DNA of 64,000 bases from Verrucomicrobiia bacterium (GTDB taxonomy: Bacteria; Verrucomicrobiota; Verrucomicrobiia; Palsa-1439), in contig JAJVHY010000012.1 in assembly GCA_022072455.1 (NCBI GenBank), positions 62,001 through 126,000 of the forward strand. Direction: 5' to 3'. Position 1 is the first letter of the stretch; each line of letters begins with the position of its first letter. The notes beneath the pieces are model-generated. The model was not told the origin of the DNA and searched no databases. It was given only the letters and a program-made list of their open reading frames with translations. The position numbers were made by a program, and so were the translations under genes. Below are positions 30,444-49,281 of the stretch, piece after piece.

Positions 30444-30520
30444 GTGGCCGTAGCTCAGCCTGGTAGAGCTCCAGATTGTGGATCTGGCTGTCGCGGGTTC
30501 AAATCCCGTCGGTCACCCCA
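30444..30520 (+). tRNA. tRNA-His (GTG anticodon)
   Basis: Cloverleaf visible: acceptor GTGGCCG with 3' partner CGGTCAC, D arm AGCTCAGCCTGGTAGAGCT, anticodon arm CCAGA-TTGTGGA-TCTGG (anticodon GTG), T arm GCGGG-TTCAAAT-CCCGT, and an encoded CCA. An extra G at -1 (30444) opposite C73 is the identity element of tRNA-His. The 3' end is overlapped by the serine recombinase gene on the minus strand. Confidence 0.95.
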
Positions 30521-32010
30521 TCCTTTACTAACTCGTGGGACATGGCATATAAGCCATTGAAAAGGCAGTCACTTGCAACGGTTCTAATTCCTTTTTTCCC
30601 GTCTCGCATGAATCCCTGAGGACTTAGAACCGCAAGCAATCGCCGCTTCTGCTCAATGGAAAGCTGATTGTAGAGCGCGGCGGCGTTGGACATCACAAAG
30701 CAGGCAGTGTTGAGCGTGGCCTCAATGTCGATCTCGTCACTCTGACAATCGTGCATTGCTACTTTCGCGGTGAGTAGTTGCTCCTCCAGTTTGGCGCGGC
30801 GAGAGGTGTAAACGTCTTTGGTGATTGCTTCCTGCTCAATGAAAAGATCGTCGAGCCGTTGGAGTTTCTTTTCGATGTCCTCCACTGCTCCCTGACTCGC
30901 CGTTGCCCCAAGCATGGCTACATCGCGCTTCTGCTGCCATGCCCTGAGCACACTCTTGCGAAAATACTTCACGAAACCAGGCTTGGTTTGCCACTGCTCC
31001 AAATACTTCTCGAAGTCGGTCTCGAGCACGTCCTTTTTCACCGAGGTCTTGCGGACACACTTGCTATTCCAACAAGCGTAATAGGCGTAGTGGGTACCGC
31101 TGCGACCTTTGGCGTTGTACCCGGTCAACAGACTGCCGCAGCACTCACAACGAAACGAGCCGCGCAACGGGAAAAGTGGATTGTCGCGGAGATGGGTGGC
31201 CGGGGTGTTGAACTTGCGTTCCTGAACAATGAGTTGAACCCGGTCGAAAATTTCTTCGCTGACAATCGGAGTGAAGTTGCCGGTTACCTTCTGCCCCCAT
31301 GCCTTGACGTTGAGTCTGCCGGTGTAAATCGGATTGGCGAGAACTTGCACAAAGGTTCCTAGCGTGACCCTATTGCCGCGCGCAGTTCGCAGTCCCATCG
31401 AGGTGACTTTCCTCAGCACTTGCGTTTTGGTGTATTGGCCGGAGGCGTACAACTTAAATGCATGGCGAATCAGCGGGGCGCGTTGCGGGTCATGGGCGAG
31501 TGTCGGCTCGTTATTGGTGTTGCGTGTGCGGAGGTAGCCTATGGGCGCATTGAACGGCCAGCGGCCTTTTTCAATCGCCATCTTCATGCCGGCCACGGTG
31601 CGATCACCACGCATATTGTTGTCGAGTTCAGCCACTGCCGCCATGACTGTCTCGAAGAACTTGCCGGTGCTCGTTTCCTCAATCGGTTCGCTAACAGAAC
31701 GCAAGCTCGCGCCATATTCGCTGAGTTTCAATCTGACGGCGAGATGATCAGATGTGTTACGGGCAAAGCGGCTGAGATTATAAACAACTACCGCCCCCAC
31801 CCTCCCCGCATTGTCCCGGCAGTAGGTCAACATGGCCTGCAACGCTGGCCGATTGGTCGTTGCGGCTGACTCGCCTTCCTCGGTAAATACCTTTGCGACT
31901 TCCCAGCTGCTACGCTCACAAAAACGTTCGCACTCGCGGCGTTGGGTTTCCAAACTGAGATTCTTGACCTGCTCCTCGCTGCTGACACGAATGTAGATAA
32001 CTGCTTTCAC
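30499..32010 (-). CDS. Large serine recombinase (site-specific integrase)
   Basis: A 503-residue recombinase. The catalytic resolvase domain starts MKAVIYIRVSSEEQ (nucleophilic Ser in RVSS). A Recombinase domain (PFNAPIGYL, NPIYTGRL), a zinc ribbon (FRCECCGSLLTGYNA ... ACWNSKC) and a coiled-coil C-terminus follow. The last codons (GVTDGI) are encoded on the reverse strand of the 3' half of tRNA-His, so the gene reads into the tRNA. This marks an element boundary or attachment site. The start overlaps the small upstream ORF by 4 nt. Confidence 0.93.
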   Translation of the reverse strand: MKAVIYIRVSSEEQVKNLSLETQRRECERFCERSSWEVAKVFTEEGESAATTNRPALQAMLTYCRDNAGRVGAVVVYNLSRFARNTSDHLAVRLKLSEYGASLRSVSEPIEETSTGKFFETVMAAVAELDNNMRGDRTVAGMKMAIEKGRWPFNAPIGYLRTRNTNNEPTLAHDPQRAPLIRHAFKLYASGQYTKTQVLRKVTSMGLRTARGNRVTLGTFVQVLANPIYTGRLNVKAWGQKVTGNFTPIVSEEIFDRVQLIVQERKFNTPATHLRDNPLFPLRGSFRCECCGSLLTGYNAKGRSGTHYAYYACWNSKCVRKTSVKKDVLETDFEKYLEQWQTKPGFVKYFRKSVLRAWQQKRDVAMLGATASQGAVEDIEKKLQRLDDLFIEQEAITKDVYTSRRAKLEEQLLTAKVAMHDCQSDEIDIEATLNTACFVMSNAAALYNQLSIEQKRRLLAVLSPQGFMRDGKKGIRTVASDCLFNGLYAMSHELVKDGVTDGI

Positions 32011-32551: not shown

Positions 32552-35020
32552 CTAAAGCCTCCGCAGGATTTCCTGATATTCATTATCGTCCACCTGAAGC
32601 TGGTCGGGGCTCGCCATGAGTTGGCCCTCAAAGTTTGCGAGGATTTCGCTGCACACGAGGGTAAACTGCAGCTGCTCTTTCTGTATGCTGCCGATCAGCG
32701 TGACCAATGTAAATCGCCGCTCACGCCTCTGCTCGTCACCGCGCAACATCTGAAGCTGAATCCGCGCGGATTTGAATCGCTTCACCGGTGCATCGAGAGG
32801 CACATCAAAATCAGTCTGCATCAGGACCTGATCATCCTCCAGGAGTAGGAGCGAGGCAGCGCACACTACATTTGGCGCGAGGATGCCGACCCCTACCTCC
32901 AGCGCCGGGGCGATGCTCCGGTGTTCGGCAACTGACAGTGTCACGGAATTCCTCACCGAGCTGCCGCGCTTGGTTTGTGCATTCAAAACCAGCTTGGTCA
33001 CGGTCACCTGCTCCAGCACTTCCGTAGCCGATGCCACATGAAACGGAAAACTCGTAATCTCCCGCTCGCTAATGCGGATAATTAACCGGTACAGACCGGG
33101 ATCTTCCGCCAGTTCAGTTCCCCGGACTTGCACCACCAGTTTCGGCAATCGAACCGGCTCCGGTCGCAACACGAATTGAAGTTGGGCAATCTTCCTGAGA
33201 CCGGCAACACCGCCGGACAAGTGAACGTCCGCCACCACCGGCACCTCCGGTAGGAACCGGTTGAAGCCAGCGGCTCTCAAAGTGAGTTGCGGAATGACCG
33301 CATCACAACTGTCAGCCACAATCTCACTTTGATAGCGCCGACCACTGCACAGAACGTGCAGTTCCTGACCTTCCGCTCGCAAGTTCTGCAGAACCAACTG
33401 CTGAGTGTACGGAACGATCTCATCTTCAGCGAGGATTTGCAGCTTCACTTCCGCAACACGCGTCTGCTGTTTCTCCAACCGCAGCCGCCAGTGTCCCGGC
33501 AACAACCAACGCTGCTCCGTACGGAGCGGGATTTTCAGACCATTGCAGACGTTCTTACCGGGTTTAGTGCGAAAGTTGACATCCGTGGCAATGCTCTGTC
33601 CGGTATCTTCGTTGAGCAAGACAACCCGTAACCGCCACGCCACCATTGGGACGTCTTCATCAAACCCGTGACCTTCAACGGCAAACTTCGGCAGGATGGC
33701 TTCGTCCGTCGCGAAGATCACGCCGTCAATCGGTTGCGTTTCGCCATCACGGAGTACGTGAATTTGCACAGCGTCGACCACCAGTCCGTCAAGAATGCTG
33801 GCTGTCTTTTCCTGTCGAATTTGTTGCCGGGTCTTGTGGGTAAAAGCGGTCTGGGCCAGAAGACGGTTTTCCAGATGGATGGTGATTTCATAGCGTCCGG
33901 GACCGTGTTGAAGTAGCGTCGGCGTAATCGGAATCGAGAGCTGGTGACGTGGACTGCTGCCTCCCCACGCGGGGATTGATTGGACCTGATGACTGACGCT
34001 CGGCGTTCGTTCATCGCGACTGACCGTAAGAGCGATCAGGAGGTTCTCCTGGGGGAGCAGCGGGTCCGGCGTGGGCAACTCGAATTGGATGACAGCATCG
34101 ATCGTTCGTGAATCCTCGGCGACTACGTCCAACGGGACGACTTTCCCGTGACGGTCCACGACACTCCAATTGCTTTCCCTGACAATCGCGCCCGCCGTCA
34201 GCATCGCCCGGACGGCGGCCTGATACGTGTCGAAGTCGGTAACTTGAACGAGGTTGGATTTGATCAATTGGTTGGCCAACCGGACGCGAAAGATATAGTC
34301 GCCGGCACCATGTCGAAAGATTCCCGAGCTACCGATCTTCTCGCTCCAAGAACATCGGTCACTGGGGAACGACACTGGGTAAGACCATGACGCTATGCTG
34401 CTGGCACCGTCACCAACGGACGCCAATTCTAGGCTCATTACCAAGCCCATCTCGGTGAGCAACTGCCGATGTTCGGCATTCGGCAGGCTCCACTCGAGAT
34501 CGTATTCCAATTGAGCGACCTGATCGTGAACACGGTTGCATTCGACACGGTAATCCACGAATCGAGCCACTAGCGTCGCGCGATGAATAAGAATTTCTTT
34601 AGCCAGAGCGGCCCGGTCCACGCATTGGAAACGTAACTCCTCGACTGTCCGACCGTTGTCGCGACAAATGACCCTTAACACAAACCCAGACTCCCTGACG
34701 ACCGGCGCACCAGCGATCACGATTGTGAAGACTGAACCATGCTCCGTCGACTGTTCCCGGGTGGTTACTTCCCAGCCTTCGTGCACGCCTCGTCCCTCCT
34801 GATTTGACAAAACAAATTCCAACTGATTGCGACGGGGCCAGCCTATTCGTGGCCAGCGAACCTGTAGTTTGATCTCCAGCGCCTGGGAGTCGTCCAAGTA
34901 TTCACGAGCGAGCGTATAGCGTCTGGCCTCGGTGATCGACGTGCACCGAGACTCCAACAGTTTCACCCCAAACAAATAGGTGAAGAAATCCTGCAACACC
35001 TTTTGAATCGCTGCCATCAT
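32552..35020 (-). CDS. 822-residue Ig-like repeat protein of the E1-E2-JAB operon
   Basis: I do not recognise a named family. Repeated beta-sandwich segments share the pattern Gly-x-Tyr/Trp, an alternating hydrophobic strand, then a second strand: GDYIFRVRLANQLIKSN (about 240-256), GRYEITIHLENRLLAQT (375-391), GHWRLRLEKQQTRVAEVK (515-532) and GLYRLIIRISEREITSF (650-666). There is no signal peptide and no membrane helix. It is the last gene of the operon, 14 nt downstream of the E1-like gene, so it may be a large scaffold or the target of conjugation. Inference only. Confidence 0.75.
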   Translation of the reverse strand: MMAAIQKVLQDFFTYLFGVKLLESRCTSITEARRYTLAREYLDDSQALEIKLQVRWPRIGWPRRNQLEFVLSNQEGRGVHEGWEVTTREQSTEHGSVFTIVIAGAPVVRESGFVLRVICRDNGRTVEELRFQCVDRAALAKEILIHRATLVARFVDYRVECNRVHDQVAQLEYDLEWSLPNAEHRQLLTEMGLVMSLELASVGDGASSIASWSYPVSFPSDRCSWSEKIGSSGIFRHGAGDYIFRVRLANQLIKSNLVQVTDFDTYQAAVRAMLTAGAIVRESNWSVVDRHGKVVPLDVVAEDSRTIDAVIQFELPTPDPLLPQENLLIALTVSRDERTPSVSHQVQSIPAWGGSSPRHQLSIPITPTLLQHGPGRYEITIHLENRLLAQTAFTHKTRQQIRQEKTASILDGLVVDAVQIHVLRDGETQPIDGVIFATDEAILPKFAVEGHGFDEDVPMVAWRLRVVLLNEDTGQSIATDVNFRTKPGKNVCNGLKIPLRTEQRWLLPGHWRLRLEKQQTRVAEVKLQILAEDEIVPYTQQLVLQNLRAEGQELHVLCSGRRYQSEIVADSCDAVIPQLTLRAAGFNRFLPEVPVVADVHLSGGVAGLRKIAQLQFVLRPEPVRLPKLVVQVRGTELAEDPGLYRLIIRISEREITSFPFHVASATEVLEQVTVTKLVLNAQTKRGSSVRNSVTLSVAEHRSIAPALEVGVGILAPNVVCAASLLLLEDDQVLMQTDFDVPLDAPVKRFKSARIQLQMLRGDEQRRERRFTLVTLIGSIQKEQLQFTLVCSEILANFEGQLMASPDQLQVDDNEYQEILRRL

Positions 35021-35034
35021 GTTGAATTCACTGA

Positions 35035-35949
35035 CTACTCAGTTGGGTTCACCGTCGCAGTGTGTTGAGCTTGTGCCTCCAGAGCGTGAAGAATGCGGTT
35101 CGCTTCGGAGCTAACGGTGGTGGAACTGGCGCCGCAGACAAGGCACTCAGGGTCGCGCGGCACACTGAAAAACTCGCAATGCAATGGTCGACCAAGGACA
35201 ACATCACCGGTAAGTGGCCGGTTACAGAACACACAAAGATTGACCGTTCTGGGAATCCCGGTCAGATCGGGGTCACCGGCCAACAAAATGTGAAGGCCAA
35301 TCCGTGCCTGAATCAGCGCGATCTGTTCAATATCCAGATTCAGCGCACACGTTGATTGAATCTCAGCAACATCAAGATTGTTATAATCTATACTCCGTGG
35401 TTTGACCGGAGCCTGACGCGTCAACTGGAGGTGATCCGCGATGCAAGCGTAGCAGGCGGCCTGAGGACTGGCGATGGTGACTTCCCCGCCAATCCCTCCG
35501 TCATACACGCCGCCGGCAACCTGCGGGACACCGGCAGCCACGGCACACTCGTTAATGCAGTGCCGGGCGGGCTCGTTGTCGACGCAGACCATGATGAGTT
35601 GGGGAGACACGCTCCGAACCAATGCCAAGAACTCTTTCTGCTGCGTTGTCACATCCAAATTGACCGTCGTAACGCGACTCGCGGGATTCAGGTCTCGGAG
35701 ATGACTGGCAACCGCTTCATTTTTCAGTTGCCCGAGTACCGGATAACCCAATGGGAAACGAATAATGTTGTGTTCTTCCACTCGCTCGTTCGGCAAATCC
35801 ACCAAAACCAACTCAACGCCAATCCGTCCGAGTTCAATGGCGATGCGGGAACCACCGGATCCCAGCCCTACCACGATGACGCGTGTATTCTGCAGCCGCG
35901 CCGGTTGAAGAATCCCCACGATGCGTCGGTAATAGATCTCCGCATTCAT
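35035..35949 (-). CDS. E1-like ubiquitin-activating enzyme (ThiF/MoeB/HesA superfamily)
   Basis: Adenylates the C-terminus of a ubiquitin-like protein. The 304-residue protein has the Rossmann loop VVGLGSGGSR (GxGxxG at 28-33), the acidic residue at the end of strand 2 (VLVDLP, D51), the NIIRF motif (R64), K76 in GQLKNEAV and D124 in CVDNEPAR, all expected for an active adenylating site. C201 in QSTCALN or the CYAC at 166-169 could be the thioester cysteine. Two CxxC pairs (239/242 and 269/272) suggest a zinc ribbon. GGAGG precedes the ATG. It lies between the 73-residue protein and the Ig-like protein. Confidence 0.9.
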   Translation of the reverse strand: MNAEIYYRRIVGILQPARLQNTRVIVVGLGSGGSRIAIELGRIGVELVLVDLPNERVEEHNIIRFPLGYPVLGQLKNEAVASHLRDLNPASRVTTVNLDVTTQQKEFLALVRSVSPQLIMVCVDNEPARHCINECAVAAGVPQVAGGVYDGGIGGEVTIASPQAACYACIADHLQLTRQAPVKPRSIDYNNLDVAEIQSTCALNLDIEQIALIQARIGLHILLAGDPDLTGIPRTVNLCVFCNRPLTGDVVLGRPLHCEFFSVPRDPECLVCGASSTTVSSEANRILHALEAQAQHTATVNPTE

Positions 35950-36031
35950 GCTTTGCCTCCGTCAAGCTATTCAATTCATTGGTGGCGAGTGGGAGTGGAA
36001 TCATCCACTCCCACCCTTGTTTAGCCCGCGT

Positions 36032-36253
36032 TCACCGCGGCATTGCATCTCCGTAATGCCGGCCATACCGGACTAACCCAGTTGTGTTCGCGTTGGGCGA
36101 AACCAGATTGACCGGTGTGGTACCTACCACGCCCTTATCCGGGTTGATGACGAGGACCTCGCCCTTGCGTTCGGCCTCGTTGATATTCCACTCCAGTTCG
36201 TCCGCCTTTTGGCGGGGTAATCCAGCAAACGCTGGATCATGCTCACGACTCAT
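36032..36253 (-). CDS. 73-residue orphan in the ubiquitin-like operon, candidate modifier or target
   Basis: Strong start context (GGAAGG 7 nt before the ATG) and a position between the E2 and E1 genes argue for translation. The sequence is hydrophilic: a helix (LPRQKADELEWNINEAERKG), then a beta-like VLVINPDKGVVG and a flexible tail ending RHYGDAMPR. It has no clear beta-grasp fold and no C-terminal Gly-Gly, so it is not an ordinary ubiquitin-like protein. It is the only short gene in the position where a modifier is expected. Function unknown. Confidence 0.7.
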   Translation of the reverse strand: MSREHDPAFAGLPRQKADELEWNINEAERKGEVLVINPDKGVVGTTPVNLVSPNANTTGLVRYGRHYGDAMPR

Positions 36254-36331
36254 GACTGACCTTCCTTTCGTTCGGTTGTGTTGTTTCTTTTCTCGACCCG
36301 GCCCACCGTGGCGCCGAATCGAACACTCGCG

Positions 36332-36727
36332 CTAGCCGGCTGCCTTTGGCCACGTGCCTTTCGACAGATAGACCAGCAGACAAGCAAACCACCGGTGCGC
36401 CGCCGGGATACAGACTGCGGCCGTGTCCCGCGCCGGTTGCCACTCCGACCCAACCCAGTGGTTCGTCCAACAGAGTTCGTTCGCGCCCAGTTGATGCGGC
36501 GAACTCGGCAAGGACTTGACACTAACAATGCGCGGGGCTGAGGCCGGATAATTGCCGGGGTAGATGATGTGGATCGGGAACTCGCGGTCGGATTCCACAA
36601 CTGTGTATTCCCACCCGAGCTGATCTCCCCAACGCTTCAAGACGGCACGGTCACTGAATTTTTGTTCCATGGCACGCACCTCGGCGACCAATCGGTTCTT
36701 GTTGGTTAAGAGTGGATGTTGGGACAT
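36332..36727 (-). CDS. E2-like ubiquitin-conjugating enzyme
   Basis: A 131-residue UBC-fold protein. FPIHIIYPGNYPASAPRIVS (50-69) is the E2 core strand-loop with YPxxxP. The motif NELCWTNHWVGSEWQPA (84-99) matches the prokaryotic E2 pattern, LC followed by W-x-P, so C86 is the likely catalytic cysteine. A terminal W near KGTWPKAAG also fits. SD AAGGA is 7 nt before the start. It lies 15 nt after the JAB gene and before the 73-residue protein. Confidence 0.85.
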   Translation of the reverse strand: MSQHPLLTNKNRLVAEVRAMEQKFSDRAVLKRWGDQLGWEYTVVESDREFPIHIIYPGNYPASAPRIVSVKSLPSSPHQLGANELCWTNHWVGSEWQPARDTAAVCIPAAHRWFACLLVYLSKGTWPKAAG

Positions 36728-36742
36728 GATTGTTCCTTGTGG

Positions 36743-38065
36743 TTATGCACCGAATGGTGGAGGCAGATCCTCCCCGGCGGAGACCGACAGCGGATTCGCC
36801 ATGACAGTCAATGCCAGATGGGCCAGCCAGATATGGCGGCCAATGGCCGGCTGCTCCCACGCGCCGGGAATGTCGCGCACGGCGCCTGCCACATCCTGAA
36901 CCCGCACCTGGAGCGCGCCTGAGTTTTGACACACCACCTCAATGATCTGTGGACCGTGGGGCGGTTTAATCGTGCAGAGCACTCCATCGTCAGCGGTTTG
37001 CAGTGAAACTTGGGCTCCTAGTTGTCGCAGAACCGCAAAATCAAAGAACGCACTGAACGCACGACCGTTTTCACACAATGCCAGTAACAAAGGAGCGGGT
37101 TGAACCAATGGGATGTCTACCAGGCAGGGCTTAACCTTGACGTATTGATAGTTCGTCGCGTCCGCCATGATAAACAAATCGACTTTCAGGTTCTGGTAGT
37201 ACGTGCTCCGCGCATCCTGTTTCGGATTATTGATTGTGATGATGCCGAACAGGAGTGCCTTGGAAGGTGCGGTTTGCACTGATTGGCGGTCATCCTGCTC
37301 GTCGCCGGAGCTGCACTGGTCGAATTGCCCAGGATGACGGTGAATCATTCCCACATCGACCAGATTGGGATGCTCAATGCGGAGCGCGGCGAGACGCTGG
37401 GTTTGCCAGTGTGTATCGAACAGAATGCTGCCAGTTGAAAAACTCGCCTTGGGGCCGGCTGGAATGAAACCACAAACCCGGATCTCTCGCCGAGTACCTT
37501 CGCTAACAAACTCCCCAACCAGAAGCGCCCCGGCTTCCTGCTCTGGGCCGTGTTTTTGCAGAAACCCGGTGAGATACGCGTGGAGACTCGGAATCAAGTG
37601 CTCGGACAGAATAACCTTGGGAAGCACGCCCGGTTGTACTTCGGGTGCCGGGACGTGGTCTTGCGATGGATGCTTTGGAACCGTGGCGGGCGCAGTTGTC
37701 GTCCGCCCCAGGATGGACACACTCTCTGTTGGTGAACCATGATGGCCAACCGGTACGTCGGATTGGACGGATGGAACGGCACGATCGCATGGTTGCCGGC
37801 ATTGTCGGCAGCCTGCTTGTCGACAGTCGGTTCGCCGCAACAAATACAGAAACCCCAGCACGAAGGTGACTAGCTCAGTTAGTGCCAATAGAAACGCGGC
37901 GATGGCAAATGCGTTACAACCGGGACACGCCAGACTGGCGACTGGCTCCTCAAGCCAAATTCGCCAGAATTCACTCGCCGGCAAAAACGGCAGACCAGCG
38001 AATGTACCGAACAGCCCTGACCGTACTAGGAATCCGGTGGGGATGAGGTTCGGAAGTTTCCTCAT
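36743..38065 (-). CDS. Membrane-anchored JAB/JAMM metallopeptidase (deubiquitinase-like)
   Basis: Starting at MRKLPNLIPTGFLVRSG (GGAG upstream) the protein has 440 residues. A transmembrane segment near the N-terminus (AFAIAAFLLALTELVTFVLG, about 52-71) anchors it. The JAMM zinc motif is intact: HRHPGQFDQCSSGD with H242, H244, S252 and D255, and Glu177 upstream (EQEAGALLVGEF). The C-terminal 130 residues have no recognised fold. Enzymes of this type remove ubiquitin-like proteins from targets or process their tails. It follows a small membrane protein and precedes the E2 gene. Confidence 0.9.
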   Translation of the reverse strand: MRKLPNLIPTGFLVRSGLFGTFAGLPFLPASEFWRIWLEEPVASLACPGCNAFAIAAFLLALTELVTFVLGFLYLLRRTDCRQAGCRQCRQPCDRAVPSVQSDVPVGHHGSPTESVSILGRTTTAPATVPKHPSQDHVPAPEVQPGVLPKVILSEHLIPSLHAYLTGFLQKHGPEQEAGALLVGEFVSEGTRREIRVCGFIPAGPKASFSTGSILFDTHWQTQRLAALRIEHPNLVDVGMIHRHPGQFDQCSSGDEQDDRQSVQTAPSKALLFGIITINNPKQDARSTYYQNLKVDLFIMADATNYQYVKVKPCLVDIPLVQPAPLLLALCENGRAFSAFFDFAVLRQLGAQVSLQTADDGVLCTIKPPHGPQIIEVVCQNSGALQVRVQDVAGAVRDIPGAWEQPAIGRHIWLAHLALTVMANPLSVSAGEDLPPPFGA

Positions 38066-38171
38066 GGCGTTGCTCCGAGTGATAAGTTCACCGATTGATG
38101 AAAGTCGCCACTGGCTGCGCAGGGCCCGAGTGAGGTTATGCTCCGGCCAGCCTGGATTGTGGCGTGGGTGC

Positions 38172-38393
38172 TCATTTTCCTTGGGTGGTGAGAATCTTGA
38201 CGATGGCGACAAGAACCAGGCCGATTAGCCCCAGAACGAATAGGCCAATTGTCTTCTCGTCGGTCGTGTGACCGGGACCGATTTGTTTTAGGCCAGTCAG
38301 CGCTCCGGCGATTTGCGGCCCATTACTCGCCAGCAGTACGAGAACGATAATGACGAGAATCAGGGCGATTATGTTCCGCCATTGAATTTGCAT
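38172..38393 (-). CDS. Small two-helix membrane protein
   Basis: A 73-residue protein with two hydrophobic helices (NIIALILVIIVLVLLAS and TIGLFVLGLIGLVLVAIVKI) joined by a short polar loop. AAGGAG is 7 nt before the ATG; the start overlaps the 3' end of the nuclease-like gene by 25 nt. Probably a membrane subunit in the same operon as the JAB protein. Function unknown. Confidence 0.75.
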   Translation of the reverse strand: MQIQWRNIIALILVIIVLVLLASNGPQIAGALTGLKQIGPGHTTDEKTIGLFVLGLIGLVLVAIVKILTTQGK

Positions 38394-38854
38394 GGTCGGC
38401 TCCTTTCTGAGGATGTGGTTGCTGAGGTGATTGTTGGATGTATTAATGTCGTGTCGACATTCAGGACGGACTTTAAAAGACTTTTATTGCGAAGTGCCTC
38501 CAACACAGCGCCCACCGTCAGACAAAATACCGACAACTTCAGGGGACGACGGGTAGTTTGGCGGTCAGTCAGTTTTTGCCGAACGGTGCGCGCCAGTTGC
38601 TCATTGGGGACGACGATCAGCAGCAGGACTGCATGCATCGCCTGGGCCTTGGCGACATCCCAGTAAATGCGTTCGGCTGTCAGTTCGATCTCACAGGCGA
38701 TGCGGCGACCACCGCAAGTCACCATCAGATCGACGTAGCCTTCGAGTGCCGAGGTCACAATTCGATATTCCCGACACACCTCCGCCCCGCTGGCACGGAA
38801 GGCATGCTCGACGCGAGCCGCGAGCACTTGATTATGAAGAAAACCGCCTCTCAT
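38369..38854 (-). CDS. PD-(D/E)XK-like nuclease domain protein
   Basis: A 161-residue protein. The core VTSALEGYVDLMVTCGGRRI (D42) followed by ACEIEL (E55, E57) has the spacing of a restriction-endonuclease-like active site, with the usual ExK lysine replaced by Glu. Similar domains occur in archaeal and bacterial proteins next to HerA-type ATPases. It overlaps the HerA-type gene by 4 nt (ATGA). Whether it is catalytically active is open. Confidence 0.6.
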   Translation of the reverse strand: MRGGFLHNQVLAARVEHAFRASGAEVCREYRIVTSALEGYVDLMVTCGGRRIACEIELTAERIYWDVAKAQAMHAVLLLIVVPNEQLARTVRQKLTDRQTTRRPLKLSVFCLTVGAVLEALRNKSLLKSVLNVDTTLIHPTITSATTSSERSRPCKFNGGT

Positions 38855-40521
38855 ACACCCTCCGGTGCGGTAGTTCCGATAGCCGCAGAGGCCGAAGGCA
38901 ATGGCTCGAGAATCAGCGCCATGCGTCCACGGCGGCCGGTCGCGACCGAGTGTTCACGAATATGGCCGAGATCGACCAAGCGCGTTCGTACCTTGGCGGC
39001 AGTCTGTCCGTTGAGCCCAGCTTGGGTCGCATAGTAAGTCGAAGATTGACCCGGCTGCTTGATCACTCCTTGAAGAAACCGAATCTCCACCTCTGACAGC
39101 GTTGTGGTTTCAGATTTCATCTCCACGACCGGTCGCGGCTCCCAATGGGTGAATTCTTGAGCTGGCACCACGGGCAGCGCGTCGAGTTCGGCGACACTGG
39201 CAGCAACTTCCGCGTCATTCACGACTGCCGGCACATCGAGCAGCGGGACTTGGAATAGGAACGGTTCACGCCATGGCCCCTCTGCCACCTGACCAAGGAA
39301 CATTCCCGGCCGGGAGTGCAAACGCCACCAGTCGATCTGTTGTGAATTGAGGCCAAGGTCTGCCCCCACCGAACTGTAATCTTCGTGGCTCCCCAGCCGC
39401 CCGCAGAATTTCGTCGCCAGATTCGGCACCAGCCGGCGCGACAACCCGATTGTGCTCTGGACATTCACCCCAACGCCAATCGCGCTCCCGCGGATGATTC
39501 CGGCCAGCTCGTCCATTGGCGCAATTTCGCCCGACGCCAGTTCATGCGTCGTACTGAAGAAGCGCTGACCATCTTCAAAGAAAACAAACAGCCGTGTCGG
39601 CTGGTTGATGACACCGCGCTGCACCTCGTGCAAAAACAGCGAGTACAACAGCGGTTCCACCACAATCTGTTTCACCAATTCCGAGGTGCCACTCATCTCG
39701 AAGACGATTGAGTAGCGGGCTAGGTCCGCCGCTAACCATGCCTTCCGGTAGGCGGCACAGCGGGGAGTCAAGGAAAGCAACAGCGTGGCGAGCCGGTCAA
39801 GAATGGCTTCGCGGGAAGCAGCATTCAAATCCGGCGCGGTACGCACCCACTCGTAAAGGTCATAGAGTGTCGGCCACACATCGTGGTGACCGTCCCACAG
39901 ACCAAACCGCCGATATACCTCATGACACCCCTGATGGATGATCGTCCGAGCACGCGGCGGCAGCCCCAGCACCCGCACCAGTAAGTCAACCACCATGGCT
40001 AGGTGCAGACGAAGATCCGCAGTGTTGGCCTGCAGCAAATTCACCCGACATTGTTCCGGCCGCAGCACCACAAGATTCAACCCAACCCGCCGGCACAAAG
40101 TCCGCAGGTGCCGAAACTGGCGCTTGTAGAGATCGACAACCCAGAACCGCGTTTGCAGAGTTGCCAGTTGCAGCAGGAGACAGCACAGCAAATTTGTTTT
40201 GCCGCTACCGGTATTGGCTGCTAGCAGTAATCCGGCCCCCAGCCAACGGTGAGGGATTAGAACCTGTCTTCCTTGGGTATCCTTACCAAGTATTATATCC
40301 CCGGCATGTAATCGTGGCATACGGAACGGGACTAACTCTCCCAATGCGTCCGCCACTCGGACTGGATGTACCCGCCCACAGATCAGTTCTTCAACTTCGG
40401 GATCACGAGCACCATAGTACCAAGCGCGCAGAAGCCGTTTGCTGGTGCGGTCAAGAAACGCGTCGTGGTTTAAGCCCCAACGAATCTCGTCGAATGTTGT
40501 TGATGAAGAGGCTGACTTCAT
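38851..40521 (-). CDS. HerA/FtsK-type ATPase with C-terminal winged helix
   Basis: A 556-residue P-loop ATPase. Walker A is LLAANTGSGKTNLLCC, a strand resembling VirB4/HerA proteins (FWVVDLYKRQFRHL) follows, and Walker B is in RLFVFFEDGQRFF. The last ~85 residues are a winged-helix domain (EVEIRFLQGVIKQPGQSS, YATQAGLNGQTAAKV). A start at 40530 (GTG) would overlap the zinc-protein stop; ATG 40521 is preferred. Its place between the RING-like gene and the nuclease-like gene suggests a DNA-translocating or membrane-pump component of this system. Confidence 0.85.
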   Translation of the reverse strand: MKSASSSTTFDEIRWGLNHDAFLDRTSKRLLRAWYYGARDPEVEELICGRVHPVRVADALGELVPFRMPRLHAGDIILGKDTQGRQVLIPHRWLGAGLLLAANTGSGKTNLLCCLLLQLATLQTRFWVVDLYKRQFRHLRTLCRRVGLNLVVLRPEQCRVNLLQANTADLRLHLAMVVDLLVRVLGLPPRARTIIHQGCHEVYRRFGLWDGHHDVWPTLYDLYEWVRTAPDLNAASREAILDRLATLLLSLTPRCAAYRKAWLAADLARYSIVFEMSGTSELVKQIVVEPLLYSLFLHEVQRGVINQPTRLFVFFEDGQRFFSTTHELASGEIAPMDELAGIIRGSAIGVGVNVQSTIGLSRRLVPNLATKFCGRLGSHEDYSSVGADLGLNSQQIDWWRLHSRPGMFLGQVAEGPWREPFLFQVPLLDVPAVVNDAEVAASVAELDALPVVPAQEFTHWEPRPVVEMKSETTTLSEVEIRFLQGVIKQPGQSSTYYATQAGLNGQTAAKVRTRLVDLGHIREHSVATGRRGRMALILEPLPSASAAIGTTAPEGV

Positions 40522-40526
40522 GGAGA

Positions 40527-40988
40527 TCACCGGTTCTCAAACTTGACGAAGGGAGAAAGCAGAGCTCGGCTCACGCTGCGGATCCGCCGTGCACGACGAA
40601 TCTCCCCGTCGCACCCGCGACAAAAGCGTCCGGTCGCTGTCCCGTTATCAGCCAGCACATACACCGAATGCTCAAGGCAAAGAGGCTTTTGGCAACGAGC
40701 GCAACGGCCAGCACACCGCTGGCACGAAATACGACCACATCCACCTTCGGCGCACTTCCCACCCGGCGGAATCTCCATCGGGCATCCGCAATGATAGAAG
40801 TGGTCAGCGTGGATGTGCGTGGAATCCACTGAATCGCCGACCTCAATTGAGTCGGCTTCCATTGGCAGCTCTACTGGATCGCCGTTTTCATCTCTGGTCC
40901 AACGCAGGCGCTGACGCCGTCGCACCGGTGCGACGGCGTCATCTTGCACTATCTGAAACCGATGTTGGTTGCGCATATTTGTGTTCAT
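40527..40988 (-). CDS. RING-like binuclear zinc-finger protein (possible E3)
   Basis: From MNTNMRNQHRF the protein has 153 residues. The zinc-binding core has four metal-ligand pairs in order: C89/C92, C96/C99, C104/H107 and C123/C126, preceded by C67/C69/C79/C84. This CxxC...CxxC...CxxH...CxxC arrangement is the plan of binuclear treble-clef (RING/B-box-like) fingers, which are known from prokaryotic ubiquitin-like operons. The first 60 residues are charged. It starts 5 nt after the small membrane protein gene. E3 activity is inference. Confidence 0.7.
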   Translation of the reverse strand: MNTNMRNQHRFQIVQDDAVAPVRRRQRLRWTRDENGDPVELPMEADSIEVGDSVDSTHIHADHFYHCGCPMEIPPGGKCAEGGCGRISCQRCAGRCARCQKPLCLEHSVYVLADNGTATGRFCRGCDGEIRRARRIRSVSRALLSPFVKFENR

Positions 40989-40993
40989 GTCTC

Positions 40994-41170
40994 TCACCAA
41001 GGTTTTGAAAACATCGTCCGATCAAGGAATTGGACCAGGTGCGCCAAGAACTCGGCCACAAACCAAAGCGCCGCCAGACCGACAAGCACCAGGATCAGTA
41101 GGAACGGACCACGCCCAAGGAATCTCAGGCAATCGACTAGTCGTTCTAAGGGAGATTGTCGCCAAGCCAT
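40994..41170 (-). CDS. Small membrane protein (58 residues) at the head of the operon
   Basis: Strong ribosome binding site (GGAGG, 6 nt before the ATG). The product starts MAWRQSPLERLVDCLRFLG and has one long hydrophobic helix (PFLLILVLVGLAALWFVAEF) before a short amphipathic tail ending SKPW. It is 5 nt upstream of the RING-like gene, so translation of the two is probably coupled. Function unknown, but together with the two other membrane-spanning proteins it places the system at the membrane. Confidence 0.75.
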   Translation of the reverse strand: MAWRQSPLERLVDCLRFLGRGPFLLILVLVGLAALWFVAEFLAHLVQFLDRTMFSKPW

Positions 41171-41555: not shown

Positions 41556-42731
41556 GTGACGCCACTGCGGTTCAGGTTGAATCTAACTCGCCGAGGACAG
41601 TTGAGTTTGGAGTCCACTGAGTTTTGGATGGCAGAGCAGCCGAGATCAGCTCCAGCAACTGCAACTGCGGTGTGTCCCCGCTTACAGGAAGCTGCCAGAC
41701 CAAACGACTCGGTGTTTCTTTGGACGGCGGGATCACGAGCGCTGACAGAATTCCTTTTGCGCGCACACGCCCATACTCCGCCCGGTGACTTTCAGTGGGA
41801 AGGCGGCCCCCAGTCTGGGGCACAGACTCTCGCCGAGGCTCTCCGCGACAAACAGACGAACCGGGGCCAGAAGACTTGGATTCAGGGAATATTTACAGCA
41901 TCAAGCGATCAACGACCGCACCCGCTCCCGTGGTCGCTGTTTCAACATAAGTATGATTCGCGAAAAGATTATTATGCAGTTCGTTTAGGCGAAGCTTGGC
42001 AGCACGCAGAGTTCTCAGTATTCGTCGACGGCCGACGTGTTTCCCACGCGGATTACAATTTCTATGCTGAACAACTGAGCAGTCAGTCTCAAGCATGGAC
42101 TCCGGCCCCTGCAAGACTAGACGGGACTGTTGAATTGCACGTGGTTGATGACAAGCGTTCGCAAGAGATTCCAATTCTTGACTATGGGTTGCCACTTCTG
42201 ACGGGAGCAAAGTTGATTGCACGAGTACGGTTGAACGAGCCGAGTTTTGCGTATTTGATCTGGATCACCAGCAAAGGGGAAGTTCAGCCCATCTATCCTT
42301 GGTTGGATTACCAATGGGAGAGCCGGGCTGCTTGCGATAAAATGACCGACTTGTGTCTGCCCCCACCGGATAATGAGGGAAATACCCGTTTCTATCCGGT
42401 CGACACAGATGGGGGGCTTGAATGCATATTTCTATTGACCCGCCACGAGCCCTTAGCAAATAGCTTTGAGCCGAAGCTCCGGCAATTGTTCGGATCGGTA
42501 GGACGTCTCGCGGCGAAAACTCCGGCACGACAGTCTAACTCTCTCTATCATTTCATCTACGCACCAGCTGTGGAAGCCCAACCACGAACCATGCGCCTGG
42601 GATTACCCCAAACGATGTACAACCCATTGGCTCGTTTCAGAACGATCATCTTTGATGGCCTGGGGCTGGAGTTCCCGGTGATAAAGGCTTGGGCTTTTTT
42701 TAATGCTAGAAGGTCGAAAGACCGGAACTGA
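41556..42731 (+). CDS. DUF4384-like protein adjacent to the CHAT protease
   Basis: A 391-residue protein with a GTG start. Residues about 215-300 (LLTGAKLIARVRLNEPSFAY, LIWITSKGEVQPIYPW) have the strand-GEVQPIYP pattern of DUF4384, a domain often found with caspase/CHAT or kinase effectors. The N-terminal ~150 residues are not recognised. It is divergent from the ubiquitin-like operon and convergent with the CHAT gene (73-bp gap). Likely a partner of the CHAT protein; role unknown. Confidence 0.65.
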   Translation: MTPLRFRLNLTRRGQLSLESTEFWMAEQPRSAPATATAVCPRLQEAARPNDSVFLWTAGSRALTEFLLRAHAHTPPGDFQWEGGPQSGAQTLAEALRDKQTNRGQKTWIQGIFTASSDQRPHPLPWSLFQHKYDSRKDYYAVRLGEAWQHAEFSVFVDGRRVSHADYNFYAEQLSSQSQAWTPAPARLDGTVELHVVDDKRSQEIPILDYGLPLLTGAKLIARVRLNEPSFAYLIWITSKGEVQPIYPWLDYQWESRAACDKMTDLCLPPPDNEGNTRFYPVDTDGGLECIFLLTRHEPLANSFEPKLRQLFGSVGRLAAKTPARQSNSLYHFIYAPAVEAQPRTMRLGLPQTMYNPLARFRTIIFDGLGLEFPVIKAWAFFNARRSKDRN

Positions 42732-42803: not shown

Positions 42804-44444
42804 TTAGGTGTACAACACTGGTGCGAGCCAACTCCCGTCCGCCCACGCCCGGTCAGTTGCGACTTTGCCACGCGTCTGGCGCATGGCTTCTTCCGGCCCC
42901 AGTTGGGGATTCGTGATCAGACTTTGATAAAATGTCGAGCCGACTTGGACCGCAGCGTCATCTTCCACATTCCAGTGCATGCCGACCACGTGATTGACAC
43001 CCGCTTCCCGCCAGGCTTTGCACATGCTAAGCTGCCTTCCAGTCACTCGATCTTGCCCGACGCGTGCGCTTTGGCATGAATTCAGGAACACGAGATTCAT
43101 GGGACCGCCTTTCGTGCCGCTCTGACCCAATGTCCCAAATTCATGGAGGTAGAATCTTGTATTCTCGTCGAGCTCGAGAAAACTCTGCCAAGGGTGTTCG
43201 GCGTCGAACATGGAATGTCCCGAAAAGTGAAGAATATTGAAGGCCCGCGACTTCAGTGCCTGAATGAACTTTGCCCGATTGGCATCTGGTCCAGTCAAGA
43301 CTTCAATATTCGATAAACCGGCATTTTGTAGAATCCTGCCGATGTTCTCGACTTCCATCTCCACCCCCGGCAGGTCACCTTTAGAATCTGAGCCGACGAG
43401 AAGTATTCCGGGAGCTTCCCAGACACTAGCTGGAATCTCGGTATCACGAATTGAGGTTACGCAACGACTAAACCGAACTTTAAGCGCCAGAAATTCTTGG
43501 CCATCGTGCATCGCCTCCCACGGTAATTCCTCCGCCCGTCCATCCACTGTTAATCGAAGGACAGCAGATTGACCATGACTAACGACGATGGGCACAACAT
43601 TTATCAACTGGCCCGAACAAACCCGCGTGTAAAACGCATTACCAAACTCAAAGGCCGCCTGACGAAACGGAAGATTCTCGACTGGCCCGGTCATTTCGCC
43701 ACGTGCCGCCAATGCACGATTGTTGATCGCAGCCAGCTTTCTGGTTCCCGCCAGCAGTCCTGCGTATGAATCTTCCCCGAACTTCACCGTCTCCTGTGCG
43801 GCTACGATGTGCTGGTCCGGCATCTGCGCTTCAGCCGCAATCACCATGGCATCTGGAGTTGTAACAACCCGCAATACTCCTTGCGTTCGGAGTTCACGCA
43901 GCGGGGAGCGAAACGCGCCTCGGGCAAGTCTCCGTCGGAACTCCGCGACTCGGGTCCGTTGACCATCCTCGAGGGCAGATACAATTTGCCCGGCACTTGA
44001 AGTAAGTCGTTGCGCGGCTTTCTCGAGGTTCTGACAAACCGTATTCAAATACTTGTCGATATCGTCTCGCCTCCAGCAGGCGTAGAGTCGCATTGCGAAA
44101 GTAGTTAGCTCAAACGTAAGATTGAGATCAATTGAGGTCGTGTTCTCGTCGATGGCAAAGCAGGTGTATTTCGCAATCGTATGTGTTTTGCCCAAACCGC
44201 AGGGCAAACGTATGTCAGAAAGGATGCGAATTTTCCCTGAGGCACCGGTGTTCTCATGTTGGATTACCTCCATATCTAAACTCACGCCAAAAATCTTGGC
44301 GGCGAATTTGCCTTCTTCGATTCTGACGGCACGGAGCGGAGAATCGCTTAGAGCCGACAATATGTCCACGTTAGCTATCACGAAATCCACCCACGGGAAA
44401 CTGGCACTCAGGTTCTTACCGCGTTGGGCTTCCAGAAGTTTCAT
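42804..44444 (-). CDS. SRPBCC-CHAT protease fusion
   Basis: A caspase-like CHAT peptidase, residues about 280-546. The catalytic dyad is His in NILHFSGHSMFD (H410) and Cys in VFLNSCQSARVG (C457). The N-terminal ~145 residues resemble an SRPBCC/START-like domain (DIDKYLNTVCQNLEKAA at its end). GAGGAG is 8 nt before the ATG. CHAT proteases are used as effectors in several bacterial conflict systems. It lies next to a DUF4384-like gene and about 60 nt downstream of the glycosyltransferase gene on the same strand. Confidence 0.85.
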   Translation of the reverse strand: MKLLEAQRGKNLSASFPWVDFVIANVDILSALSDSPLRAVRIEEGKFAAKIFGVSLDMEVIQHENTGASGKIRILSDIRLPCGLGKTHTIAKYTCFAIDENTTSIDLNLTFELTTFAMRLYACWRRDDIDKYLNTVCQNLEKAAQRLTSSAGQIVSALEDGQRTRVAEFRRRLARGAFRSPLRELRTQGVLRVVTTPDAMVIAAEAQMPDQHIVAAQETVKFGEDSYAGLLAGTRKLAAINNRALAARGEMTGPVENLPFRQAAFEFGNAFYTRVCSGQLINVVPIVVSHGQSAVLRLTVDGRAEELPWEAMHDGQEFLALKVRFSRCVTSIRDTEIPASVWEAPGILLVGSDSKGDLPGVEMEVENIGRILQNAGLSNIEVLTGPDANRAKFIQALKSRAFNILHFSGHSMFDAEHPWQSFLELDENTRFYLHEFGTLGQSGTKGGPMNLVFLNSCQSARVGQDRVTGRQLSMCKAWREAGVNHVVGMHWNVEDDAAVQVGSTFYQSLITNPQLGPEEAMRQTRGKVATDRAWADGSWLAPVLYT

Positions 44445-44507
44445 CAACCCATCTCCTCATCAAGCGGCAAAGAGTTGGCAGATGCGCTCGTCGGACCTCT
44501 GGCCTCC

Positions 44508-47131: not shown

Positions 47132-47482
47132 TTACGTATGTACTGAGTCAGACTTCTGCCGGAGAAAGATTCGATACGGACGGTGGGACTTGTTCTTCAC
47201 GGCCTGAATCCGGTCGTAGAAGATCAGCGTTCCGTCGTGCGAGCCAAGCGGAATGGTGTTGGCCAGATACTGCAGCGCCTTGCGGATGGCAGCGCCACTG
47301 CGGTTACAGAGTTTCATCAACCGCGAAAGGGTGAGTGGATACCGGTAGCAGGGACGTGTGCCATACAGATTCTTGTAGTAGTGAACGATCTGCTCATACA
47401 CATGATTCAACAGTCGCACTTCACGTTCGTCGAGCACTTCAATAACACCGGACCTAACCCACACCCGCTTCTGAAGCATCAT
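47132..47482 (-). CDS. Hypothetical protein, winged-helix-like
   Basis: From MMLQKRVWVRSGVIEVLDE the protein has 116 residues; GGAGG lies directly before the tandem ATGs. The segment REVRLLNHVYEQIVHYYKNL followed by SRLMKLCNRSGAAIRKALQY looks like a winged helix (helix-turn-helix plus wing). It overlaps the 3' end of the HerA-type gene by 29 nt, so the two are coupled. Confidence 0.6.
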   Translation of the reverse strand: MMLQKRVWVRSGVIEVLDEREVRLLNHVYEQIVHYYKNLYGTRPCYRYPLTLSRLMKLCNRSGAAIRKALQYLANTIPLGSHDGTLIFYDRIQAVKNKSHRPYRIFLRQKSDSVHT

Positions 47483-48833
47483 CACCTCCGTCGCCAATAT
47501 CGGTGTCCATGACTGTGCCCCTCTCCACCGGCACGAGAGGGAATCTGACGTAGCATGGCTCAACTCGCCCTTTGATCTTCACAATCCCTTCGCCAACCGC
47601 TAACCGGTCGAGAAATACCTCATCGCCACGGGGAAGAAACAGGGCGCGCTTCGCCGTCACAATATCGTCCTCGTGCTGAAGGCCGAGATAGATCTGCGTG
47701 TTGCAGTTACCGAGAATGTAGACCGGCAGCATGGATGGATGCTGGGTGATATTCACCAAGCCCTCGCCAAAACTACGAATTTCCCTGAACACGGTCTCCA
47801 GGCTGTTGGTCGCTTGTTTCTCAATCTGACTTTTTGGAAATAAGTTGTGGACTTCTTCGAGTACGGTCACGTGCCGGAGTGAATCAGTCTCCCCTTGCCC
47901 CAGCCGGTAGAGATGAATCCACCGCAAGATGATGTCGTTCAGAAACACTCGTAGTGGCTTCGGTAACTCTTGATCAAGTTCGATGACGACGGGTTGTTCG
48001 AGTAGTTCCTCCAGCTTGATCGGGTTTCGCGCGTTGAACGCGCCGGCAGCCGGGCCAAAGATGAACGTGTTAAGAATTCTCAGGCAGCTATCCTGCCAGA
48101 GCATACGTCGTCCTTTGAACTGAACGCGGTCGAGTTCTTCCCGGGCATCGAAGAAGTTTGGGTACTGGTCCGGTATACCATTGTATAGACCGGTATCCGC
48201 GAATTTTTTGTCGAGAATCTCGATCAGAATGTCCGCCACGCCGGGGCCCGAGATGTGGGATTTCTCCAATGCCTCTGCCACTGTGCTGATCCATGTCTTA
48301 GGATGTACCCCCGGCGGGCCGCGCAACGGATTCCATCGAAACATGGACGCGCTTTTACGTCCGACAGTTAACACCCGCAGCTTCTTGGTGTTCGGCCGGT
48401 TCAATGCTCGCAATGACCGGTAACTACGTTTCCAATCAAGGACCAAGAATGGTACGTTTTTCTCCAGCAAACCGAGCAGGAGACTTTGCGCGACATTTGT
48501 TTTCCCGCCACCCGTGATGGAGAAGATCCCGATGTGCTTAATGAAGTTTTCCCGGCGAAGCTGAAGCGGAAAAAACTCCGACTTGCCGTAAAGAATCGTG
48601 CCCAGTGGAAACTCGCCATCGGCAGCCTCACGCGATGGCGGTGGCAGCAGAATCTTCGTATCGTCCACACGATCGGTCAGGTACCGGGTCGCGATCATTT
48701 GGATCAAGGCTTCCGACTGTCGTTTTGCCTCCGGTGTCTCCGCGGTCGCATAGGCAATCCAGAGGGCATCGGCTCGTTTGCCGACCAGCGGTTTCAATTT
48801 CCGGCAGAGTTCCTTCAATTGTTCCTCAAACAT
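47454..48833 (-). CDS. HerA-type ATPase, second copy
   Basis: A 459-residue P-loop ATPase (DUF87/TraD-like). Walker A is GIFSITGGGKTNVAQ (K111); the strand FLVLDWKRSYRSLRALNRPN equals that of the first HerA-type protein (VVDLYKRQFRHL). Walker B is VTVLEEVHNLFP. It overlaps an upstream coiled-coil gene by 8 nt. A conjugation or DNA-processing function is likely for this class. Confidence 0.85.
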   Translation of the reverse strand: MFEEQLKELCRKLKPLVGKRADALWIAYATAETPEAKRQSEALIQMIATRYLTDRVDDTKILLPPPSREAADGEFPLGTILYGKSEFFPLQLRRENFIKHIGIFSITGGGKTNVAQSLLLGLLEKNVPFLVLDWKRSYRSLRALNRPNTKKLRVLTVGRKSASMFRWNPLRGPPGVHPKTWISTVAEALEKSHISGPGVADILIEILDKKFADTGLYNGIPDQYPNFFDAREELDRVQFKGRRMLWQDSCLRILNTFIFGPAAGAFNARNPIKLEELLEQPVVIELDQELPKPLRVFLNDIILRWIHLYRLGQGETDSLRHVTVLEEVHNLFPKSQIEKQATNSLETVFREIRSFGEGLVNITQHPSMLPVYILGNCNTQIYLGLQHEDDIVTAKRALFLPRGDEVFLDRLAVGEGIVKIKGRVEPCYVRFPLVPVERGTVMDTDIGDGGDDASEAGVG

Positions 48834-49281
48834 CTTCCAGAAACGCTCCTCGCGCCTTAGCACGTTCGTATTCGTCCCAGAACATGAGAAAATCACGCAA
48901 CACAAGCACAATGTCCCGCCAGCACTGGGTGTCTTGATCTCGGCGTTCCTGAGTCAATTCAAAGTCGCGCTGATACAGCCGGTCCTTCTCCTTGTGATCA
49001 CGTAGATGATAATTCGCCGCGACGCTGATCTGTTGAACCATCCCGGTCAGTTTCTCGCGATCATCCGCGATGCGCTCAATGTTCTGTTGCCGGATCTTCA
49101 GCCGCGCCTGAACCGTCGTGCCGATGGCTTCCAGTTTCGTCCGCAGAATCCGTGTATTGACGTGGATCAGATCGTCGAGTGTCTTGTTGGTAGCACTGGC
49201 CAGAACCGGGCTTACGCTAACCGCATACTCCTTGCCCGGTATCCTGACCCGACTCCAATCAATCAGCTTCTCCAGTTCCAT
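48826..49281 (-). CDS. Coiled-coil hypothetical protein
   Basis: A 151-residue protein dominated by long helices (RLKIRQQNIERIADDREKL, HLRDHKEKDRLYQRDFELTQ). No membrane helix. Its stop overlaps the HerA-type ATPase start, so it is probably a partner of it. First gene of this three-gene minus-strand cluster. Confidence 0.65.
   Translation of the reverse strand: MELEKLIDWSRVRIPGKEYAVSVSPVLASATNKTLDDLIHVNTRILRTKLEAIGTTVQARLKIRQQNIERIADDREKLTGMVQQISVAANYHLRDHKEKDRLYQRDFELTQERRDQDTQCWRDIVLVLRDFLMFWDEYERAKARGAFLEDV

Follow-up and report, generated by a model that had tools for sequence, protein, structure and literature searches.

The stretch of DNA analysed here (referred to as the window) comprises 64,000 nucleotides (nt) of a Verrucomicrobiia bacterium (GCA_022072455.1, contig JAJVHY010000012.1, positions 62,001 to 126,000) and contains an operon that joins genes of ubiquitin-type conjugation enzymes to those of a HerA-type ATPase and a predicted nuclease. 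All positions are coordinates in this window, and the operon is read from 41170 down to 32552. The one-strand, tightly packed ten-gene operon that had been described earlier on the basis of the sequence alone (the original prediction) was recovered, as all ten open reading frames (ORFs) were confirmed at the same coordinates, all of them on the minus strand and in one packed series with several overlaps (Table 1). From 5′ to 3′ they encode a small membrane protein (TM1; TM, transmembrane), a zinc protein, the HerA-type ATPase (HerA), the nuclease (NUC), a second small membrane protein (TM2), a JAB peptidase, an E2-like enzyme, a protein of 73 amino acids (aa), an E1-like enzyme and a large repeat protein (BIG). 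TM segments were detected by hydropathy in TM1, TM2 and JAB. The start of the JAB gene is uncertain, with a TTG at 38212 and an ATG at 38065, of which the ATG is the likely start; with the TTG, TM2 and JAB would overlap instead of being separated. Judged from sequence comparison, the operon is composed of two modules, each of them conserved separately in Hydrogenedentota, namely TM1-zinc protein-HerA-NUC and JAB/E2/73-aa protein/E1/BIG. For TM2 no link to either module was established.

Table 1. Genes of the operon in 5′ to 3′ order, followed by the adjacent features. Negative gaps are overlaps.
Feature	Position	Strand	Gap to next gene (nt)	Evidence
TM1, small membrane protein	40994..41170	-	+5	Ribosome-binding site and ATG at 41170; TM segments; L077 homologue
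RING-like/treble-clef zinc protein	40527..40988	-	-4	ORF opens at TTG 41000, ATG at 40988 used; homologue upstream of HerA in L077
HerA/FtsK-type ATPase, C-terminal winged-helix-like region	38851..40530	-	-4	PADLOC mad8; homologues in L078/L077
NUC, predicted PD-(D/E)XK-like nuclease (D42, E55-x-E57), C-terminus NGGT	38369..38854	-	-25	Homologues in L078/L077; invariant residues; low-confidence model
TM2, small protein, two TM segments	38172..38393	-	+106	Hydropathy; 25-nt overlap with nuclease gene
Membrane-anchored JAB/JAMM peptidase	36743..38212	-	+15	Conserved E226/H291/H293/S301/D304; PADLOC JAB 0.0024; TM segment about 91-119
E2-like conjugating enzyme, Cys86	36332..36727	-	+78	PADLOC; PDB E2s; invariant C86/W96/H78
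73-aa conserved small protein, candidate modifier or conjugation substrate	36032..36253	-	+82	Homologue in L024
E1-like adenylating enzyme	35035..35949	-	+14	Pfam ThiF; PADLOC E1-E2; L024 homologue; invariant motifs
BIG, 822-aa protein, about five degenerate beta-strand-rich repeats	32552..35020	-		Repeat motif; homologue in L024
Large serine recombinase (CcrB/XisF-like)	30499..32010	-		Pfam Resolvase 1e-35, Recombinase 3e-13; CcrB 1.5e-36
tRNA-His, where the island probably integrated	30444..30520	+		ARAGORN

Conjugation enzymes and the candidate modifier

The E1-like protein matches ThiF in Pfam (5e-24), and the E1 profile is among its best PADLOC matches (E1-E2 profile, 1e-21). A profile built from two E1 sequences matched the structures of MoeB (2e-16), UBA5 and Cap2, and that of MccB at about 2e-8. 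From the motif that had originally been read as G28xG30xxG33, R64, K76 and D124, the residues G33, R64, K76 and D124 do not vary among the five E1s compared. G28 and G30 are kept, apart from one adjacent G-to-C/A change, in the four E1s with an intact N-terminus, a comparison that excludes the Mesorhizobium E1 as annotated, the N-terminal part of which lies in another frame. The E2-like protein, predicted earlier from C86 and W96, matches the PADLOC E1-E2 profile (3e-7), and a profile of four bacterial E2s (from the window, from the related locus L024 and two from a Mesorhizobium operon) matches solved E2s at 1.6e-7; both residues as well as H78 are invariant in seven of seven E2s. JAB scores weakly in family libraries (0.029 in Pfam), and it keeps the JAMM residues E226, HxH (H291/H293), S301 and D304, which are conserved among its homologues, as expected from the membrane-anchored peptidase with intact motif that had been proposed. 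The best PDB match of its profile is a solved peptidase (4.5e-4), with Rpn11 matching weakly. The idea that its C-terminal region is an inactive E2 gained no support from a conservation check. Sequence profiles and conserved residues thus identify a ThiF-type E1, an E2 with its cysteine and a JAMM-type JAB, the enzyme set of a bacterial ubiquitin-like conjugation operon, and all three assignments are genuine.

A genome scan with E1 yielded one close relative, L024, from Hydrogenedentota and thereby apparently from a phylum different to that of the window. In L024, genes for JAB, a homologue of the 73-aa protein, E2 and E1 are followed by a BIG-like gene, with identities of 41% for E1, 42% for E2 and 35% for JAB and with the 73-aa gene in a moved position.

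None of the operon proteins searched with profiles matched a beta-grasp family, and as no beta-grasp ubiquitin-like (Ubl) modifier is recognisable, the operon is not as complete-looking as it had been called. The only small soluble protein within the enzyme block is the 73-aa protein, the sequence pattern of which reads unlike a beta-grasp. It is not the orphan it had been taken for, as L024 contains a 64-aa homologue, encoded between its JAB and E2 genes (E = 5e-6; z = 11; 0/2000 shuffles). The similarity of a 57-aa protein from the Mesorhizobium operon to the 73-aa protein was not significant (p about 0.05) and serves as a lead only. Conjugation of a protein lacking the beta-grasp fold is established for type II of the cyclic-oligonucleotide-based anti-phage signalling system (CBASS), where Cap2 conjugates cGAS via its C-terminal glycine and the JAB protein Cap3 reverses this step (PMC10097602). 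BIG, the last gene product, carries a G/S-x-[YWF] motif at residues 110, 239, 374, 508 and 641, with a spacing of 129-135 aa and a count that was reached in 0/2000 shuffles; its homologue downstream of E1 in L024 was found with tblastn (1.6e-5; z = 9.5).

The HerA-nuclease module and the relatives of both modules

HerA contains an intact Walker A motif, matches mad8 in PADLOC (1.4e-9) and shares a winged-helix-like C-terminal region with its relatives, which bears out the earlier description as a HerA-type ATPase with winged helix. Searches with HerA and the zinc protein, which covered 68 genomes of the phylum of L024, led to the loci L077 and L078. The gene order in L077 is TM1-like (z = 6.1; 1/5000 shuffles), zinc protein (z = 13), HerA (1e-51; about 25-27% identity), nuclease (34% identity), an 82-aa ORF, GrpE-like, Hsp70 (4.5e-76) and vWA (2e-15). 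In L078, HerA (55% identical) and the nuclease (45%) are followed by a GrpE-like gene (Pfam 3e-9) and by Hsp70, which was read from the translation. The nuclease gene directly follows HerA in both loci. No homologues of E1, E2 or JAB were found in L077 or in L078, the contig of which is only 3.8 kb long. As the TM1-zinc protein-HerA-NUC unit stands beside chaperone genes in L077, it evidently exists with chaperone partners as well. Homologues of both gene sets thus co-occur elsewhere, in line with the original prediction, JAB/73-aa/E2/E1/BIG in L024 and TM1-zinc protein-HerA-NUC in L077. As an observation of its own, L077:6417-12283 and L078:3-3774 might represent a chaperone-controlled HerA-nuclease system; a tyrosine integrase lies near the L077 locus.

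No family library gave a match for the nuclease. Its residues E16, R28-E29, G39, D42, E55-x-E57, R62, D66 and K69 are, however, invariant in three homologues, and their order fits a PD-(D/E)XK core with ExE replacing ExK. ExE in place of ExK is found in BamHI. The PD-(D/E)XK-like assignment of the original prediction is supported by this catalytic pattern, while the fold itself stays unproven: the best PDB match of the nuclease profile, Cas4, was not significant (E = 0.42), and single-sequence AlphaFold models of the nuclease and of the zinc protein, with a mean predicted local distance difference test score (pLDDT) of about 45, were too poor for use. A Foldseek search with these models returned nothing significant, the zinc protein giving only weak treble-clef matches. 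Together, a HerA-type ATPase with Walker A motif and an adjacent nuclease gene, the nuclease being recognised by conserved residues only, constitute the gene pair of HerA-nuclease defence systems. The nuclease ends in ...FNGGT, and it is conceivable that this C-terminus is conjugated; as this end falls within the overlap with the TM2 gene and the L078 and L077 nucleases have other C-termini, it is only a lead.

Most Cys/His positions of the zinc protein and its C-terminal RRIR..SPF are conserved in the homologues. It had been described as RING-like, of which the conserved Cys/His pattern stood up and the RING fold did not gain proof. As its homologue in L077 accompanies the HerA-nuclease and Hsp70 in a locus without E1/E2/JAB, its partner appears to be the HerA-nuclease, and a role as E3 of the conjugation enzymes is doubtful.

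In two further loci from Hydrogenedentota, L028 and L029, JAB, E2 and E1 of a different lineage are followed, directly after E1, by a HerA-type ATPase gene (PADLOC: HerA 7e-4 in L028; mad8 1.3e-9 and HerA 2e-7 in L029). As this lineage also adjoins a HerA-type gene, the association of E1/E2/JAB with HerA-type ATPases appears to be recurrent and would either have arisen at least twice or be old. The combination had been judged unusual, but the pairing of such enzymes with a HerA-type ATPase has these parallels in L028 and L029. E1/E2/JAB of the L028/L029 lineage also occur in L046, from the class of the window, where no HerA was recognised by the comparison used.

An orthologue of the operon was not found via HerA in 384 genomes of the class and 388 of the phylum, nor via E1 in the 388 phylum genomes. 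Distant HerA matches from these scans (L004-L008) had no E1/E2/JAB homologues nearby. Viral contigs scanned with HerA, E1, nuclease and zinc protein contained no relatives, and plasmids scanned with HerA gave no match.

At its 3′ side the operon adjoins the serine recombinase gene, the 3′ end of which overlaps the 3′ end of tRNA-His. In relatives, MutL and tRNA-His are mostly neighbours, with varying genes beyond, and in G010 a 47% identical recombinase overlaps a neighbouring tRNA-Arg. No second copy of the tRNA-His end was found as a duplicated attachment site.

Possible function and competing explanations

What this study establishes is which genes are present, that their catalytic residues are conserved and that each module is conserved on its own. 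Beyond that, it appears quite possible, and is tentatively favoured here, that the operon encodes a mobile two-module system against invaders (phages or plasmids), in which reversible conjugation would control a membrane-linked HerA-nuclease. This reading is suggested by the intact residues of E1, E2 and JAB, by the conservation in L024, by the conservation of TM1-zinc protein-HerA-NUC or HerA-NUC with chaperones in place of the Ubl genes, by the second coupling of E1/E2/JAB to HerA-type genes in L028 and L029 and by the position next to a recombinase at a tRNA that has varying neighbours in relatives. A HerA ring and the nuclease would be anchored to the inner membrane by TM1 and, perhaps, by the zinc protein; there HerA would pull invading DNA in and the nuclease would cut it, as put forward in the HerA/FtsK capture hypothesis (PMC12839542) and comparable to the DUF4297-HerA complex, which cuts double-stranded DNA and protects against phage (PMC11291478). 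The second module would then control the first, with E1 adenylating and E2 transferring the C-terminus of a short protein, either the 73-aa protein or possibly the nuclease tail, onto the HerA-nuclease effector or onto a protein of the invader, from which the membrane JAB peptidase would take it off again. BIG is a candidate for a sensor or binding surface, and in the relatives the control module would be swapped for GrpE/Hsp70/vWA.

Several points weigh against this reading. The two modules were found side by side in no other genome, which leaves a single operon as the basis for a functional link between them. The L024 contig of 4.7 kb ends before the first module could appear, and no HerA was found elsewhere in the L024 genome. 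The C-termini of the 73-aa protein (...HYGDAMPR in the window, ...THYLN in L024) share no conserved glycine, and its role as a classical modifier is unproven, as are the PD-(D/E)XK fold of the nuclease and the RING fold of the zinc protein.

A serious rival, although in our view unlikely, is that TM1-zinc protein-HerA-NUC, normally under chaperone control, and JAB-E2-small protein-E1-BIG are two independent defence cassettes that became chance neighbours on an island, their co-transcription being incidental. This would agree with L077 and L078 lacking E1/E2/JAB, with the L024 genome lacking HerA and with the window being the only joint locus found. However, all genes lie on the same strand, there are overlaps within the first module and TM2 and JAB possibly overlap too; the regulatory genes of L077 and L078 occupy the place of the Ubl genes, which suggests an exchange of partners, and in L028 and L029 another E1/E2/JAB lineage adjoins HerA-type genes.

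It is quite improbable that the operon serves the housekeeping of a mobile element or the envelope, with HerA serving the element as its coupling ATPase or as a pump for partition and conjugation regulating envelope proteins. HerA does weakly resemble DNA import or coupling proteins (NCBIfam CedB, 0.024), three membrane proteins are encoded and a serine recombinase is adjacent, but none of the ORFs examined with profiles was recognisable as a relaxase, mating-pair or partition gene, and both the nuclease partner and the likeness of HerA to mad8, an ATPase of defence, speak for an attack on DNA. Of the two options that the original prediction had named, membrane-bound defence or envelope modification, a defence-like, membrane-associated system seems the best reading and the envelope role the lesser one. 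Least probable of all is that E1, E2 and JAB, instead of conjugating proteins, act on small molecules or peptides, by adenylation of the MccB or ThiF type or by sulfur transfer, which would suit the MoeB and MccB matches of E1 and the lack of a beta-grasp modifier gene but not the catalytic-Cys E2 and the JAMM peptidase, which are found together in CBASS type II and other bacterial conjugation operons.

If the favoured two-module reading holds, ubiquitin-type conjugation governs a bacterial DNA translocase-nuclease, with chaperones replacing the control part in relatives. It would also add to the evidence that a conjugated protein can do without the ubiquitin fold, and would offer a small, testable candidate modifier that is conserved between phyla. 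More speculatively, and with rather low probability, the operon might be one member of a family of modular defence systems. Their common effector would be the membrane-bound set of zinc protein, HerA and nuclease, and the part controlling it would be interchangeable: Hsp70/GrpE/vWA in some genomes and, in the window, a ubiquitin-like cascade that switches the DNA-cutting machinery by conjugating either the conserved small protein, which is not of beta-grasp type, or the tail of the nuclease. No account of E1/E2/JAB joined to a HerA-nuclease was found in the literature, the coverage of which was partial for prokaryotic RING/Ubl systems and for earlier work on HerA/FtsK capture, hence no priority is claimed.

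Related operons and neighbouring genes

With CBASS type II (Cap2/Cap3) the operon shares E1, E2 and JAB, but it has separate genes for E1 and E2, a membrane-anchored JAB and the HerA-nuclease, and neither a CD-NTase cyclase nor a SAVED/Cap cyclic-nucleotide effector was present among the window genes examined. The Bil (ISG15-like) and the 6a-6e prokaryotic Ubl operons (Iyer 2006, PMC1779556) likewise contain neighbouring E1, E2 and JAB genes; unlike them, the operon has no recognisable Ubl or PolyUbl, profile searches of its proteins yielding no BilA-like tandem Ubl, and it has HerA, nuclease, membrane and repeat proteins in addition. The FtsH-ternary vWA-MoxR conflict systems (Kaur 2020, PMC7159879) resemble it in their separate genes for JAB, E1 and a RING-type protein, the last matched here by the RING-like zinc protein, and in their modular, exchangeable parts. 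They differ in that the operon lacks EAD1 and a Ubl-E2 fusion and has HerA as its ATPase; scans of the operon proteins and of neighbouring ones gave no vWA, MoxR or FtsH. HerA-effector defence systems (DUF4297-HerA, Sir2-HerA/Nezha; PMC11291478) and the HerA/FtsK capture systems (PMC12839542) also have HerA beside a nuclease gene, whereas here the nuclease is another, small one, zinc and membrane proteins are added and Ubl enzymes replace Dnd or BREX parts.

The operon on a plasmid of Mesorhizobium sp. AR10 (L022) has separate E2, E1 and JAB genes too and starts with the 57-aa protein, but it includes a metallo-beta-lactamase-like protein, a patatin and a second, Cys-less E2-like protein and lacks HerA. 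At L022:7763-12669 the order is 57-aa protein (ending in LGGEY), E2, Cys-less E2-like protein, E1, JAB, metallo-beta-lactamase-like protein and patatin. L028:1269-12250 and L029:3221-12281 encode, after HerA, helical proteins and a WD40-like protein, L028 also a Ser/Thr kinase and tetratricopeptide repeats (TPR), giving the impression of a complex conflict-type locus. At L046:7149-17091, JAB-E2-E1 of a Bradyrhizobium-type lineage are followed by several unassigned genes, and on the same contig, L047:817-3165 contains one more E1 gene of the ThiF type together with small neighbouring genes, perhaps another Ubl-type operon.

Within the window, a CHAT-protease gene (42804-44447; Pfam 8e-37) and a divergent gene (41556-42731), whose DUF4384 match is weak and falls below the cut-off, lie directly upstream of the operon and are defence-flavoured neighbours on the island. 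Both were considered as operon members and ruled out, as a plus-strand gene intervenes. Further upstream, a second HerA-type ATPase is encoded at 47454-48911 (DUF87, 4.5e-11), the N-terminal region of which resembles the distant HerA family of L004-L008.

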